A DNA stretch of 64,000 nt from the NCBI RefSeq assembly GCF_003030345.1, contig NZ_CP028158.1, positions 3,224,001 through 3,288,000 on the forward strand, given 5' to 3'. Every line of letters begins with the position of its first letter. Position 1 is the stretch's first letter. A program made the position numbers and the translations under genes. This DNA comes from Plantactinospora sp. BC1. GTDB taxonomy: Bacteria; Actinomycetota; Actinomycetes; Mycobacteriales; Micromonosporaceae. This document shows, piece after piece, positions 28,142 to 32,535 of this stretch. Below the pieces are notes generated by a model. It was given only the letters and a program-made list of their open reading frames with translations. It did not search any database and had not been told where the DNA came from.

Positions 28142-28182
28142 CCGCGGTCGGGCGCGGGCCGCGTCGCGACGAGGAGCTGTCG

Positions 28183-29754
28183 ATGACCGCCGCTGTGTCC
28201 CGGCGTACCGCCGACGTCGCCAGCACGCACACGCTGCTCGGCTGCGTCGCCCGGGAGGTCGCCGGCCCGGAACGGCAGACGACGCTGGCCGACGGGCACG
28301 CCGTGGTACGGCTGCCGCGCAGCGCCGTACTGCTGCGCTGTGCGGTGGCCCGGGTCTCCGAGGTGGGGGCGCACCGCTACGAGGGTCCGGTGCAGCGGTT
28401 CTCCGCCGGTGCCTGGTCACCGGTTGACGCGGCCGGGCTCGCCGCCCTGGTCGCCGACGAGCTGACCCTGCGCACGGGGGTACGCAACGACGAGTTCACC
28501 GGGCAGGTGGTGGCGAGCCGGGACGCGCTGGACCGGGTACTCCGGCTGCGCCCGCCCACCGACCCGGACCCGACCGGCGACCCGGTCGTCGACTCCTATG
28601 TGGACTCTGAGCAGTCACTTGTGCACGGTCATCCCCGGCACCCGGCCCCGAAGTGGCGCAGCGGCGACGTCGAGGCGTGGAACGCGTACGCCCCCGAACT
28701 GCGCACCAGCCTGCGGCTGCGCTGGATCGCCGTACCGGAGGCACTGCTCGGCTCGGAGGGACCCTTCGACGAGCTGATCGGGGCACTCGATCCGCCGGTA
28801 CCGCCGGCCGGGCACGCCGTACTGCCGGTGCACCCCTGGCAGTACGAGCTCTCCGGGCCGCTCGACCCCCGGCTGCGCGACCTCGGCACCGCCGGTGCGG
28901 TACTCCGCCCGACCGCCAGCGTCCGGACCCTCTACGCGCCCCGGGCCGACCTCTTCGTCAAGACCAGCCTGCACATCCGGATCACCAACTGCGTACGCAA
29001 GAACGCCCGCTACGAGTTGACCGGTGCGGTGGCGCTGACCCGGCTCCTCGCCGAGCTGCCCCTGCCGGCCGGGGTGGCGCTGCTGCCCGAGCCGGCGTAC
29101 CGGACGGTGGAGCTGCCGGGGCTGGACGAGACGTACGGGGTGATCCTGCGCGGCGGGTTGCGCCCGCACCTGGCCGAGGGCGAGACCCCGCTGATCGCCG
29201 CCGCCCTGGCCGCCGCCCCGCTGGCGGTGCCCGATCCGGTCGGCTGGTGGGACGCGTACGTCCGGCTGCTCGTCCCGGCCGTGCTCGAACTCTGGTGGCG
29301 GCACGGGGTGGTGCACGAGGCCCACCTGCAGAATGTGGTGGTGGTGCTGGACGCCGACCGGTGGCCGGTGCGGATGCTGTTGCGCGACCTGGAGGGCGTC
29401 AAGCTCGACACCGAACGCCGGGCCGACTGGCTCGCACACCTGCCGGCCCCGATCGGATACGACCCCGAGCAGGCGTTCAACCGGGTCAGCTACTGCCTCT
29501 TCGTCAACCACCTGGTGGAGCTGGCCGGTGCGCTGGCCGACGCGCACCCCGGGGTCGAGGCGCGGCTCTGGGCGGCGCTGCGCGAGGTGGTCCGGGAGAC
29601 CTCCAGCCGGCTCGGCGACCCGCCCCGGCTGCGTGCCCTGCTGTCCGGGGTTCCGCTGCCGGTCAAGGCCAACCTGCTGGTGCGCTGGCAGCGCGCCGCC
29701 GACCGGAACGCCGGCTACCTGCCGTTCCCCAACCCCATCGGAGAGCGCTGGTGA
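28183..29754 (+). CDS. NIS siderophore synthetase (IucA/IucC family), PvsD-like
   Basis: A 523-residue second NIS synthetase with canonical motifs: LPVHPWQYEL (ATP binding), SVRTLYAPRADLFVKTSLHI, here in part, then RITNCVRKNARYELTG, ELWWRHGVVHEAHLQN, LLRDLEG and the C-terminal LPVKANLLVRWQRAADRN. ATG 28183 follows GAGGAG by 6 nt. An in-frame GTG at 28138 overlaps the preceding stop (GTGA) and is a possible alternative adding 15 residues. By order it matches pvsD, whose product condenses citrate with serine. It ends with a TGA that overlaps the first mini-ORF of the 59-bp repeat. Confidence 0.9.
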   Translation: MTAAVSRRTADVASTHTLLGCVAREVAGPERQTTLADGHAVVRLPRSAVLLRCAVARVSEVGAHRYEGPVQRFSAGAWSPVDAAGLAALVADELTLRTGVRNDEFTGQVVASRDALDRVLRLRPPTDPDPTGDPVVDSYVDSEQSLVHGHPRHPAPKWRSGDVEAWNAYAPELRTSLRLRWIAVPEALLGSEGPFDELIGALDPPVPPAGHAVLPVHPWQYELSGPLDPRLRDLGTAGAVLRPTASVRTLYAPRADLFVKTSLHIRITNCVRKNARYELTGAVALTRLLAELPLPAGVALLPEPAYRTVELPGLDETYGVILRGGLRPHLAEGETPLIAAALAAAPLAVPDPVGWWDAYVRLLVPAVLELWWRHGVVHEAHLQNVVVVLDADRWPVRMLLRDLEGVKLDTERRADWLAHLPAPIGYDPEQAFNRVSYCLFVNHLVELAGALADAHPGVEARLWAALREVVRETSSRLGDPPRLRALLSGVPLPVKANLLVRWQRAADRNAGYLPFPNPIGERW

Positions 29755-29792
29755 GCGCGAACGAAAGGCAGGCCCGTGAGCGCGAGGAGTGA
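29751..29792 (+). CDS. 13-residue coupled mini-ORF at the start of the repeat
   Basis: GTG 29751 overlaps the stop of the second NIS synthetase (GTGA) and reads 13 codons (MSANERQAREREE) to TGA at 29790-29792. It also covers the ribosome-site-like AAAGGCAGG of the first repeat unit, so it may deliver ribosomes to GTG 29776. Confidence 0.3.
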   Translation: MSANERQAREREE

Positions 29793-29889
29793 GCCGGGGT
29801 TGCGAGCCCCACAGCGCGAACGAAAGGCAGGCCCGTGAGCGCGAGGAGTGAGCCGGGGTTGCGAGCCCCACAGCGCGAGCGAAAGGCAT
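29756..29889 (+). repeat. 59-bp tandem repeat, two full units plus partial third
   Basis: The block CGCGAACGAAAGG starts at 29756 and 29815, and a variant starts at 29874. The two full 59-bp units are identical. Each carries AAAGGCAGG, then GTG, then a GGGG-TTGCGAG-CCCC hairpin-like segment. It resembles the short dispersed repeats known from Micromonospora and Salinispora gene junctions. It has no transposase and no terminal inverted repeats. Confidence 0.93.
29776..29838 (+). CDS. 20-residue coupled mini-ORF, repeat unit 1
   Basis: GTG 29776, preceded by AAAGGCAGG, opens 20 codons (MSARSEPGLRAPQRERKAGP). The TGA at 29836-29838 overlaps GTG 29835 of the next unit (GTGA). The coding content is basic and Arg/Pro-rich without a known motif. 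Confidence 0.38.
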   Translation: MSARSEPGLRAPQRERKAGP

Positions 29890-29897
29890 CGTGGTGA
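29835..29897 (+). CDS. 20-residue coupled mini-ORF, repeat unit 2
   Basis: GTG 29835 opens 20 codons, the same peptide as unit 1 except for the last two residues (SW). Its TGA at 29895-29897 overlaps GTG 29894 of the decarboxylase gene (GTGA). It completes an unbroken chain of overlaps from the NIS synthetase to the decarboxylase. Confidence 0.38.
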   Translation: MSARSEPGLRAPQRERKASW

Positions 29898-31042
29898 CCG
29901 AGCACGTCAAGCCGAGTTACTGGTACGACCTGGCCGGGCTGGACGGTTCGGCGGCGGCGATCCGGGCTGCGCTGCCGCCCGGGCTCGAACTTCTCTACGC
30001 GATGAAGGCGAACCCCGATCCGGGAATCCTGCGCACCCTGGCGCCGCACGTCGACGGTTTCGAGGCGGCCAGCGGCGGCGAGCTGCGGCACCTGGCCGAG
30101 GTCTTCCCGGGCACTCCCCCGGCGGCGTTCGGCGGACCGGGCAAGACCGATGCGGAACTGATGGCCGGGCTGGCCGCCGGGGTACGCCGGTTCCACGTCG
30201 AGTCCCCGACCGAGCTGCGTCGGCTCGCTCGGCTGGCCGTGGACCGGGGTACGGTCGCCGACGTCCTGCTCCGGGTCAACCTGCCGGTACCGGTCGGCGA
30301 GGCGGTACTCGTGATGGGCGGTCGGCCCAGCCCGTTCGGGATGTCGCCGGAAGATGCCCGGGCCTGTGCCCGGCTCGACCTGCCGGGAATCCGGATCCGG
30401 GGCGTGCACGCCCACCTCGGCAGCGGGCTCGGCGCACCCGGCGCCGCCGCCGTGGCCCGGACGGTGGTCGAGTGGGCGGTGGCCGAACTCGACGCCCGCG
30501 AGGTGAACGTCGGTGGCGGCATGGCGGTCGACTACACCGATCCGGCGGCTCGGTTCGACTGGTCGGCGTACGGCGCCGGGCTGGCCCGGCTGCTCGCCGA
30601 GTATCCGGGCCGGACACTGCGGATCGAGCCGGGCCGGGCGATGACCGTCTACTGTGGTCGTTATCGGGTCGAGGTGCTGGACGTGAAACGCTCCGGTGCC
30701 GAGTGGTTCGTGGTGGTGACCGGCGGCACGCACCAGCTCCGTACCCCGGCCGCGAAGTCGCACTCCCAGCCGTTCTCGGTGCTGCCCCGCCCCGAGTGGG
30801 GGTACCCGTTTCCCCGGCCGGTTACCGGGAGCGGGCCGGTGACGATCGTCGGGCAGCTCTGCACCCCGAAGGACGTACTGGCGCGGGTGGCCGACGCGGC
30901 CGAACTGCCGCCGCCGGGCCGGATCGCGGCCGGCGACACGATCGTCTTCGACATGGCCGGCGCGTACGCCTGGAACATCAGTCACCGGGACTTCCTGATG
31001 CACGACCCGCCAGAGTTCCGGACCGGAGTCCCGGAGGCTTGA
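29894..31042 (+). CDS. PLP-dependent decarboxylase (fold type III), PvsE-like
   Basis: A 382-residue alanine-racemase-fold decarboxylase related to diaminopimelate and ornithine decarboxylases. The PLP lysine lies in LLYAMKANPDPGIL near residue 36, HAHLGSG and VNVGGGMAVDY match the phosphate-binding glycines, EPGRAMT is the conserved EPGR motif, and QLCTPKDVLAR near residue 320 carries the catalytic Cys of this class. In vibrioferrin synthesis PvsE removes the carboxyl of the citryl-serine intermediate to leave ethanolamine; in staphyloferrin B SbnH does a similar job. GTG 29894 is chosen over GTG 29891 because of better spacing and the GTGA overlap with the upstream mini-ORF. Confidence 0.87.
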   Translation: MTEHVKPSYWYDLAGLDGSAAAIRAALPPGLELLYAMKANPDPGILRTLAPHVDGFEAASGGELRHLAEVFPGTPPAAFGGPGKTDAELMAGLAAGVRRFHVESPTELRRLARLAVDRGTVADVLLRVNLPVPVGEAVLVMGGRPSPFGMSPEDARACARLDLPGIRIRGVHAHLGSGLGAPGAAAVARTVVEWAVAELDAREVNVGGGMAVDYTDPAARFDWSAYGAGLARLLAEYPGRTLRIEPGRAMTVYCGRYRVEVLDVKRSGAEWFVVVTGGTHQLRTPAAKSHSQPFSVLPRPEWGYPFPRPVTGSGPVTIVGQLCTPKDVLARVADAAELPPPGRIAAGDTIVFDMAGAYAWNISHRDFLMHDPPEFRTGVPEA

Positions 31043-31255: not shown

Positions 31256-31273
31256 CTCTGACTATAGTCAGAG
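31256..31273. promoter_or_regulatory. 18-bp perfect palindrome over the start of the MarR fusion gene
   Basis: CTCTGACTATAGTCAGAG is a perfect palindrome that ends 2 bp before ATG 31276 and includes the purine-rich ribosome site (AGAGGA). Its size and symmetry fit a MarR dimer site, so autoregulation is likely. Confidence 0.7.
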
Positions 31274-31275
31274 GA

Positions 31276-32535
31276 ATGACCGGGATTTCTGCCCAGGGGA
31301 CCATGCTCGACCAGGCGCGGTCGGTCCGCGACTTCAACCGCTACTACTCGCAGCGGATCGGGCTGCTCACCGACCGCTACCTCGGGCAGGATCGACCACT
31401 CAGCGAGGCCCGGCTGCTCTACGAGATCGGCACCGGCGCCACCGTCCGCGACCTGCGCAGCCGGCTCGGCTGGGACTCCGGCTACCTCAGCCGGTCGCTC
31501 CGCTCCCTCGAAGGGCAGGGCCTGGTCCAGCTTCGGGCACACGAGACGGACGGCCGGGTCCGGGTGGCCGAACCGACCGACGCCGGCAGCGCCGAACTCG
31601 CCGAACTGGAGCGCCGCTCGACCGCCGCCGCCGGCCAACTGCTGGCCCCGCTCACCGCAGCCCAACGGGCGGAACTGATCACCGCCCAGCAGCGGGTCCG
31701 CCGGCTGCTCCGGCTGGCCGCCGTCACCGTCGAGCCGACCGACGCCGGCTCGGCCACCGCCCGGGAGTGCCTGACCGGGTACGCCGCCGAACTGTCCACC
31801 AGGTTTCCCGAGGGGTACGACAGCCGGGCGCTGGCAGACCCGGCCGAACTCGGCGGGACCGGCGGCGCCTTCCTGGTCGCGTACGAGCAGGGGCACCCGA
31901 TCGGCTGCGGCGGAATCCGTACCCTCGCCCCGGGCGTCGCGGAACTCTGCCATCTCTGGGTGCACGGCGACGCCCGTGGCCTGGGGCTCGGCCGCCGACT
32001 CCTCGCCGAGTTGGAAGGAGAGGCGGCGGCCCGTGGCCTGCACACCGTGCGGCTGGGCACCCACCGATCGCTGCCCGAGGCGGCGGCGCTCTACCGCTCG
32101 GCCGGCTACCGGCAGATCCCGGTGTACGGCGACAGCCCGTACAACCAGCTCTGCTTCGAGCGGAGGCTCGCCGGCGACGTACCCGAAGGTCCGCTGCCGT
32201 CGCTCGACGGCCGGCGGTTCCGCGCGGTGGCCGAGGTCGACGGCGGCGAGGTCGGGGCCGCGACCGTCTTCGACTACCGCGAGCGCGGCGGGGAGATCTC
32301 GGCGGTGTACTCCGGCGGCAGCATCCGGAGCGGCCACCTGGTCGGCACCCGGGACGGCGACAGCCTCGACTTCCGCTACGTGCAGCTGAACACCGCCGGT
32401 CACACCTCCACCGGTCACTGCCGCAGCCGGATCTCGCTGCTGCCCGACGGCCGCCTACGCCTACACGAAACCTGGACCTGGGAATCCCGCGAAGGCTCCG
32501 GCACCAGCACCGTCGAGGAAATCCCCTACCGGTGA
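31276..32535 (+). CDS. MarR-GNAT fusion with C-terminal lipocalin-like domain
   Basis: A 419-residue protein with three parts. Residues about 10-145 are a MarR winged helix (LSEARLLYEIGTGATVRDL, SGYLSRSLRSLEGQGLV). Residues about 150-300 are a GNAT acetyltransferase with the acetyl-CoA loop ARGLGLGRRLLAELE and the SLPEAAALYRSAGYR helix. The last 115 residues (RFRAVAEVDGGEVGAATVFDYRE, here in part, then GTRDGDSLDFRYVQLNT and a closing EETWTWE-like strand) match a small beta-barrel family usually seen as a stand-alone protein misnamed N-acetylglutamate synthase. MarR-GNAT pairs are common; this third part is unusual. An 18-bp palindrome covers the ribosome site. Tail-to-tail with the esterase gene. 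Confidence 0.85.
   Translation: MTGISAQGTMLDQARSVRDFNRYYSQRIGLLTDRYLGQDRPLSEARLLYEIGTGATVRDLRSRLGWDSGYLSRSLRSLEGQGLVQLRAHETDGRVRVAEPTDAGSAELAELERRSTAAAGQLLAPLTAAQRAELITAQQRVRRLLRLAAVTVEPTDAGSATARECLTGYAAELSTRFPEGYDSRALADPAELGGTGGAFLVAYEQGHPIGCGGIRTLAPGVAELCHLWVHGDARGLGLGRRLLAELEGEAAARGLHTVRLGTHRSLPEAAALYRSAGYRQIPVYGDSPYNQLCFERRLAGDVPEGPLPSLDGRRFRAVAEVDGGEVGAATVFDYRERGGEISAVYSGGSIRSGHLVGTRDGDSLDFRYVQLNTAGHTSTGHCRSRISLLPDGRLRLHETWTWESREGSGTSTVEEIPYR

Follow-up and report, generated by a model that had tools for sequence, protein, structure and literature searches.

A dispersed, MIRU-like and probably translation-compatible element at start codons of Micromonosporaceae

We consider it quite probable that the 59-bp repeat separating a siderophore synthetase gene from a decarboxylase gene in Plantactinospora sp. 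BC1 belongs to a dispersed, MIRU-like and translation-compatible element of Micromonosporaceae that resides at start codons, mostly within operons and in sense orientation. The placement, the sense orientation, the alleles with and without units, the tandem variation and the bias in reading phase are seen directly. In the scenario that we propose, the element would supply its own GTG, placed on the old upstream stop, and its mini-ORF would either have a stop sharing 4 nt with the next start or continue in frame into the next reading frame. Ribosomes that finish the upstream gene could then resume at the mini-ORF and pass from unit to unit, so that an insertion would cost little expression. Once inserted, the units would multiply in tandem, selection would produce the phase bias, and mobility would be conferred by some enzyme.

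The window, that is, the whole stretch of DNA that was analysed (64,000 nucleotides; NZ_CP028158.1, positions 3,224,001 to 3,288,000), includes such a junction, with the features listed in Table 1. A Pfam scan of the synthetase, which took 28156-29751 and thus 27 nt extra at the 5' end, detected IucA/IucC and FhuF domains, and the decarboxylase frame holds a second possible start, GTG 29891. Downstream of the decarboxylase, MarR and GNAT acetyltransferase domains are joined in one protein (31270-32532, plus strand; Pfam).

Table 1. Features of the repeat-bearing junction (window coordinates)
Feature	Position	Strand	Remarks
NIS siderophore synthetase, 523 aa, upstream gene	28183..29754	+	ATG 28183; stop TGA 29752-29754
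Probable 25-bp remnant of first unit	29751..29775	+	GTG overlapping synthetase stop
Ribosome-site-like tail GAAAGGCAG ahead of GTG 29776, identical to that at 29822..29830	29763-29771	+	read in sequence
First whole 59-bp unit	29776..29834	+	mini-ORF GTG 29776, 20 codons, stop TGA 29836-29838
Ribosome-site-like tail GAAAGGCAG ahead of GTG 29835	29822..29830	+	read in sequence
Last unit, 59 bp up to GTG 29894	29835..29893	+	GTG 29835, 20 codons, TGA 29895-29897
GTGA stop/start overlap joining both mini-ORFs	29835..29838	+	
PLP-dependent Orn/DAP/Arg decarboxylase family, downstream gene	29891..31042	+	start GTG 29894 or GTG 29891; Pfam
GTGA stop/start overlap, last mini-ORF/decarboxylase	29894..29897	+	

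Between the two genes lie two exact 59-bp copies (29754-29812 and 29813-29871) and a partial third copy of 17 nt (94%, 29872-29888). The preliminary description had seen in this repeat a relay of overlapping mini-ORFs, each with a ribosome-site-like sequence, a GTG and 20 codons, running from the synthetase stop to the decarboxylase start, and part of that description is borne out: ACGAAAGGCAGGCCC stands before both GTG 29776 and GTG 29835, each of which opens 20 codons, and stop and start overlap as GTGA from 29776 to 29835 and on to 29894. The first link of the chain, however, has to be given up. The synthetase stop does overlap GTG 29751 as proposed, but the 13-codon frame opened there reaches its stop at 29790-29792, which lies 17 nt inside the mini-ORF that begins with GTG 29776. 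A 4-nt overlap with this stop is formed by GTG 29789, not by GTG 29776, and the chain from GTG 29789 leads through GTG 29848 into a frame of 421 codons other than that of the decarboxylase. The first unit at this junction is probably a 25-bp remnant in which an internal deletion would have joined the unit start to the unit tail. Relatives carry one whole unit (G001) or two (G003) at the same junction; G001 is classed in the genus of the window, and two of its stretches match Plantactinospora alkalitolerans exactly.

The repeat is one representative of a dispersed family. A 19-nt core, GTGAGCGCGAGGAGTGAGC, occurs in 14 exact copies in the Plantactinospora genome and in 24 copies when up to 3 mismatches are allowed, compared with 0 and 3, respectively, for a backward-pattern control, that is, more often than chance would provide. 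A sequence model derived from 25 units, run against the same genome at E up to 0.1, returned 24 matches at 15 sites, 13 of them in sense with the downstream gene and two (E 2.7e-7 and 7.7e-4) antisense to the surrounding genes. Within Micromonosporaceae, a sample of 81 genomes from 44 genera had the exact core in 24 genomes and 16 genera; in a sample of the order, it is present in 35 of 249 genomes, all 35 of these being among its 42 Micromonosporaceae genomes. In named sequence records, a 35-mer recovered Micromonospora and one Plantactinospora among the 80 stretches listed out of 94. The window repeat had no match at E 1e-5 in 50,697 phage records. We found no report of the core sequence, its peptides or repeats of Micromonosporaceae in the open-licence literature; a Micromonospora lupini genome paper mentions DNA repeats once, in passing, and says nothing more on repeats or palindromes.

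In each unit, GTGAGCGCGAGGAGTGAGC is followed by a middle whose length varies, by GCGAGCCCCGCAGTCGCGAAC and by a tail of roughly 13 nt that contains a ribosome-site-like GRAAGG; the tail terminates where the next unit or gene has its start codon. Across 69 sites, tails match AAGGAGGTGATC by at least 4 nt in 91% of cases (60% when shuffled) and by at least 5 nt in 43% (19% when shuffled). The initial GTG appears to be part of the element itself because the ATG form of the exact core is rare (7 hits in the 81 genomes of the family sample, where the GTG form has 167) and because 17 of the 70 genes reached through a 4-nt overlap begin with ATGA while the first and last units ahead of them begin with GTG. 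Four loci (L050, L104, L106 and L109) have units of 105-117 bp, in which an extra middle starts with GTTCCGGGG or GTTTCGGGG and the ends are unchanged. Two genes of the Plantactinospora genome (L238, 2683984; L240, 4190867-4190909) start with a truncated unit that is read in their own frame as MSARSEPG, and their N-termini are probably derived from the element.

The two halves of the unit form an imperfect inverted repeat, and the consensus folds at -14.9 kcal/mol, as would suit a hairpin or attenuator acting at the RNA level to control or stop transcription between the genes of an operon. We regard this as very improbable: none of the 13 predicted pairs shows change on both sides, so that conserved RNA structure finds no support from covariation, the region 29000-30500 has no Rfam match, and a hairpin by itself has no need of the reading phase described below.

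How the units sit relative to genes was analysed at 111 non-redundant sites, with flanks taken from places among the matches listed and from loci found in searches; clusters less than 60 nt from the locus start or less than 250 nt from its end, clusters lacking an exact core, and duplicates were left out. Frames were assigned by a codon-usage caller trained on 24 ORFs of the window. A caller based on the longest ORF, which gave 4-nt overlaps at 48 and fusions at 24 of the 111 sites, was discarded since it misassigned frames, in the window too; the period table is independent of it. Gene names at junctions other than those scanned with Pfam are read from the sequence. The downstream gene is co-oriented with the unit at 110 sites and the upstream gene at 107, and at 74 sites the unit GTG lies on the upstream stop as GTGA. 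The hand-over to the downstream gene takes place through a 4-nt overlap (hereafter, -4) at 70 sites, by in-frame fusion at 24 and through TGATG at 7, with none at 10. Much the same picture emerges from a second set of 73 sites, drawn from the named records (the 80 stretches listed of 94, minus 14 clusters near ends) and sharing one site with the first: 71 are in sense, 53 show the -4 overlap and 14 are fused. At the 17 sites of both sets that lack a co-oriented upstream gene, not all of them independent junctions, 15 still have the -4 overlap, one is fused and one shows neither. On a Micromonospora plasmid, according to the record annotation itself, a lysophospholipid acyltransferase family gene ends in a stop that overlaps the unit GTG, and the glycerol-3-phosphate dehydrogenase gene starts 59 bp after that GTG. 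The placement of copies at sense-strand junctions that leave a path for ribosomes thus stands as originally proposed.

The in-frame fusions at 24 of the 111 sites, together with the pdxT alleles of two relatives (G003 and G006) that open with unit-derived codons, could be taken to mean that the unit encodes useful N-terminal extensions or leader peptides. This reading strikes us as the least credible, given that 87 of the 111 sites have no fusion call and that sub-types with differing middle lengths read their second half in different frames; for the latter reason, there is no single conserved peptide, just an open phase.

The periods range from 54 to 68 bp, with some of 89-117 bp, and lengths of 56, 59 and 60 bp dominate; a conserved period of 59 bp is not borne out. 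Among 61 family-period pairs, 31 equal 2 mod 3 (the GTGA relay), 25 equal 0 (in-frame merge) and 5 equal 1, so that about half of the periods lack the GTGA overlap, a loss that the preliminary description had named as contrary to its reading if most copies showed it, whereas the path is interrupted by the phase of only the last 5. Between the last unit and the gene, the majority phase over 80 junction families, which are incompletely independent and include one locus without a downstream protein (L053) counted alone, is 2 in 59, 0 in 19 and 1 in 2 (p=1e-14; for 0 against 1, p=2e-4); the corresponding numbers over all 111 sites are 79, 28 and 4, and those over 41 families of the second set are 32, 6 and 1, with two uncalled. 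Middle length differs by sub-type, tail length shifts to match, and the two compensate, such that phase 1 occurs in 9 of 143 units (those remaining of 197 after de-duplication), compared with 45 expected on shuffling.

Another view of these patterns is that of an inert selfish repeat that inserts at RTGA starts, in which the gene is translated from the carried ribosome site alone; the choice of target, together with ancestry in a few masters whose lengths are 2 mod 3, would then produce the -4 overlaps as a side effect. The ribosome-site-like tails fit this view, as do two of the three dominant lengths, 56 and 59, which are 2 mod 3, and -4 overlaps are frequent anyway, being available in 11 of the 25 close co-oriented gene pairs of the window. 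If the units descend from a small number of masters, 56 and 59 bp long, some of the surplus of phase 2 could follow from that; the scarcity of phase 1 is harder to account for in this way. Departures from phase 2 favour 0 over 1 both among families (19 vs 2) and among periods (25 vs 5), tail length tracks middle length in a way that keeps the phase, and a model in which only the site matters predicts no phase bias at all, an argument that is weakened by shared descent within sub-types. On these grounds, we judge the inert repeat rather unlikely and favour the translation-compatible element.

A path composed of -4 and -1 overlaps only is open from the first unit to the gene at 103 of 111 sites and 70 of 73 sites in the two sets. 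After insertion of one base into the last unit, it is open at 75 and 57 sites, respectively, and after deletion of one base, at 43 and 18. This test is weaker than it looks because about 74 of 111 and about 48 of 73 paths are expected to be open at random phase. As a baseline, the 720 of 892 upstream start codons that reach the gene proved an invalid control since the upstream frames run into the units. The idea of a three-frame adapter, based on a second GTGA at unit offset 13, was likewise abandoned, entry in frame +2 reaching the gene at only 58 of 111 and 25 of 73 sites.

Comparison of relatives offers a view of the sites with and without the element. Seven junctions were compared in seven genomes of the genus, and 48 of the 49 alleles were found, the murG-murC junction being absent in G001. 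Read by eye, a simple RTGA overlap free of units is present at the window junction in G002, G004 and G005, at gap-pgk (Pfam) in G001 and G004, and at the junction preceding an enoyl-CoA hydratase family gene (L010; Pfam) in G001, G002, G003 and G006, where G000 has one 59-bp unit. Of the five junctions at which an empty allele is clear, the other two (L003 and L009) have a few bases between stop and start in that allele and no overlap, so that the common target is the start codon rather than the overlap. Not counted as clear empty alleles were those of murG-murC in G004 and G005 (no unit) and G002 (diverged), the diverged sequences of dppB-C in G002 and G005 and of L010 in G005, and the window junction of G006, with its different upstream sequence. 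We infer gain as the polarity, with loss possible at some sites. At 69 of the 111 sites, limited to hand-overs at -4 or -1 and to 24 codons or fewer, the positions -1, -2 and -3 before GTGA agree between the two ends with frequencies of 0.67, 0.61 and 0.41, compared with 0.35, 0.41 and 0.30 on shuffling, a weak sign of a short target duplication of 2-3 nt. Apart from these positions, there is an isolated excess at -8.

After insertion, the units appear to have multiplied in place. Within 22 arrays of at least three evenly spaced units, the internal units are 99% identical to one another and 82% identical to the last unit, and identity across units of different arrays is 85%, as tandem amplification would predict. 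Unit number also varies between species at shared junctions, both that of the window and pdxS-pdxT. The latter junction, where the SOR_SNZ and SNO domains were recognized in the locus with the longest array (L127; Pfam), has six units in G004 (L127), four in G006 (L141, the last truncated), three in G001 (L134) and one in G003 (L117), and in G003 and G006 pdxT begins with codons of the unit, read in frame. The junction thereby provides, at a housekeeping operon, a graded series of copy numbers found in nature.

The closest parallel to this element is found in MIRUs (mycobacterial interspersed repetitive units). A 2025 review citing Supply 1997 (PMC12548453) describes these as seemingly mobile, inserting at start codons and coupling an ORF at -4; by that account, the principle of a coupled ORF had been described before. 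Another article (PMC2734929) puts the size at 40-100 bp, counts 41 places in a single strain and lists differential translation among the proposed roles; it also notes that MIRU copy number is used in tuberculosis strain typing while the exact function is not well understood. The shared features are short scattered units, tandem copies, sites at start codons, where the units of Micromonosporaceae also sit, and a unit ORF overlapping the next start at -4, the last being a likeness of anatomy alone, seen here at 70/111 and 53/73 sites. In size, the periods of 54-68 and 89 bp fall in the MIRU range, and the few of 105-117 bp exceed it.

We gathered MIRU-like copies from the order sample of 249 genomes with a MIRU core, which is present in nine genomes, all of one genus of another family of that sample (f8), while the 42 Micromonosporaceae genomes lack it; conversely, GTGAGCGCGAGGAGTGAGC is confined to Micromonosporaceae (35/249). 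Of 22 MIRU-like sites read, 21 are in sense with the downstream gene, and 18 of 24 copies have RTGA at the 5' end; with frames called by a model trained on the window, these 18 comprise 10 with phase 2 and the -4 overlap, 3 with phase 0 and 5 with phase 1, one of the five preceding another unit. The phase bias is thus weaker than in the units of Micromonosporaceae. In one genome of the MIRU-core genus (G282, L197), three MIRU-like units have a period of 51, that is, 0 mod 3, in parallel to the 60-bp in-frame arrays of Micromonosporaceae; another locus, L211, has a period of 53. Homology to MIRUs is unsupported: a comparison of one composite MIRU-like string with three unit strings gave P values of 0.37 and 0.34 and, for the third sub-type, 0.0135 uncorrected for three tests, so that the similarity is not significant after correction. 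The family of Micromonosporaceae matches MIRUs in design, not detectably in sequence.

Other mobile or repetitive sequences provide partial parallels. Like MITEs, the units are short and dispersed, have a variable middle and show no gene of their own at the sites read, and their imperfect inverted halves may correspond to the terminal inverted repeats of MITEs; unlike MITEs, they show no clear target duplication past 2-3 nt and no autonomous partner at the sites read, and are placed directionally, at start codons. With REPs they share the nature of short palindromic dispersed repeats, but REPs are extragenic and are not known to be linked to start codons. The start-associated sequences of cluster K mycobacteriophages are repeats tied to start codons, and the Rickettsia palindromic elements are in-frame palindromes within genes. 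A Y1/RAYT enzyme as the mobilizer is unsupported, the Y1_Tnp domain (PF01797) having no match in the genome of Plantactinospora sp. BC1. Among nine core-bearing genomes, this domain was found in three (G069, G041 and G162) and had no match in G000, G004, G050, G009, G268 and G307; it was also found in two of ten core-less genomes.

It is conceivable, although we put this forward quite tentatively and with more doubt than belief, that start-codon elements with coupled mini-ORFs arose more than once, such that a family unrelated in sequence to MIRUs, in a different bacterial family, converged on the same design, targets the translation start region of the coding strand and has its phase kept by selection via compensating lengths. 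If the translation start region is truly the target, this would suggest mobility connected with mRNA, translation or single-stranded DNA rather than with a short DNA site. A second family of MIRU design, along with unit-free alleles in sister species, makes the spread of such elements and the function of their mini-ORFs testable in soil actinomycetes. For annotation, there is a warning, namely, that N-termini derived from units and the 20-codon ORFs are element sequence. More generally, the family presents a natural design for adding parts to operons without breaking translation.
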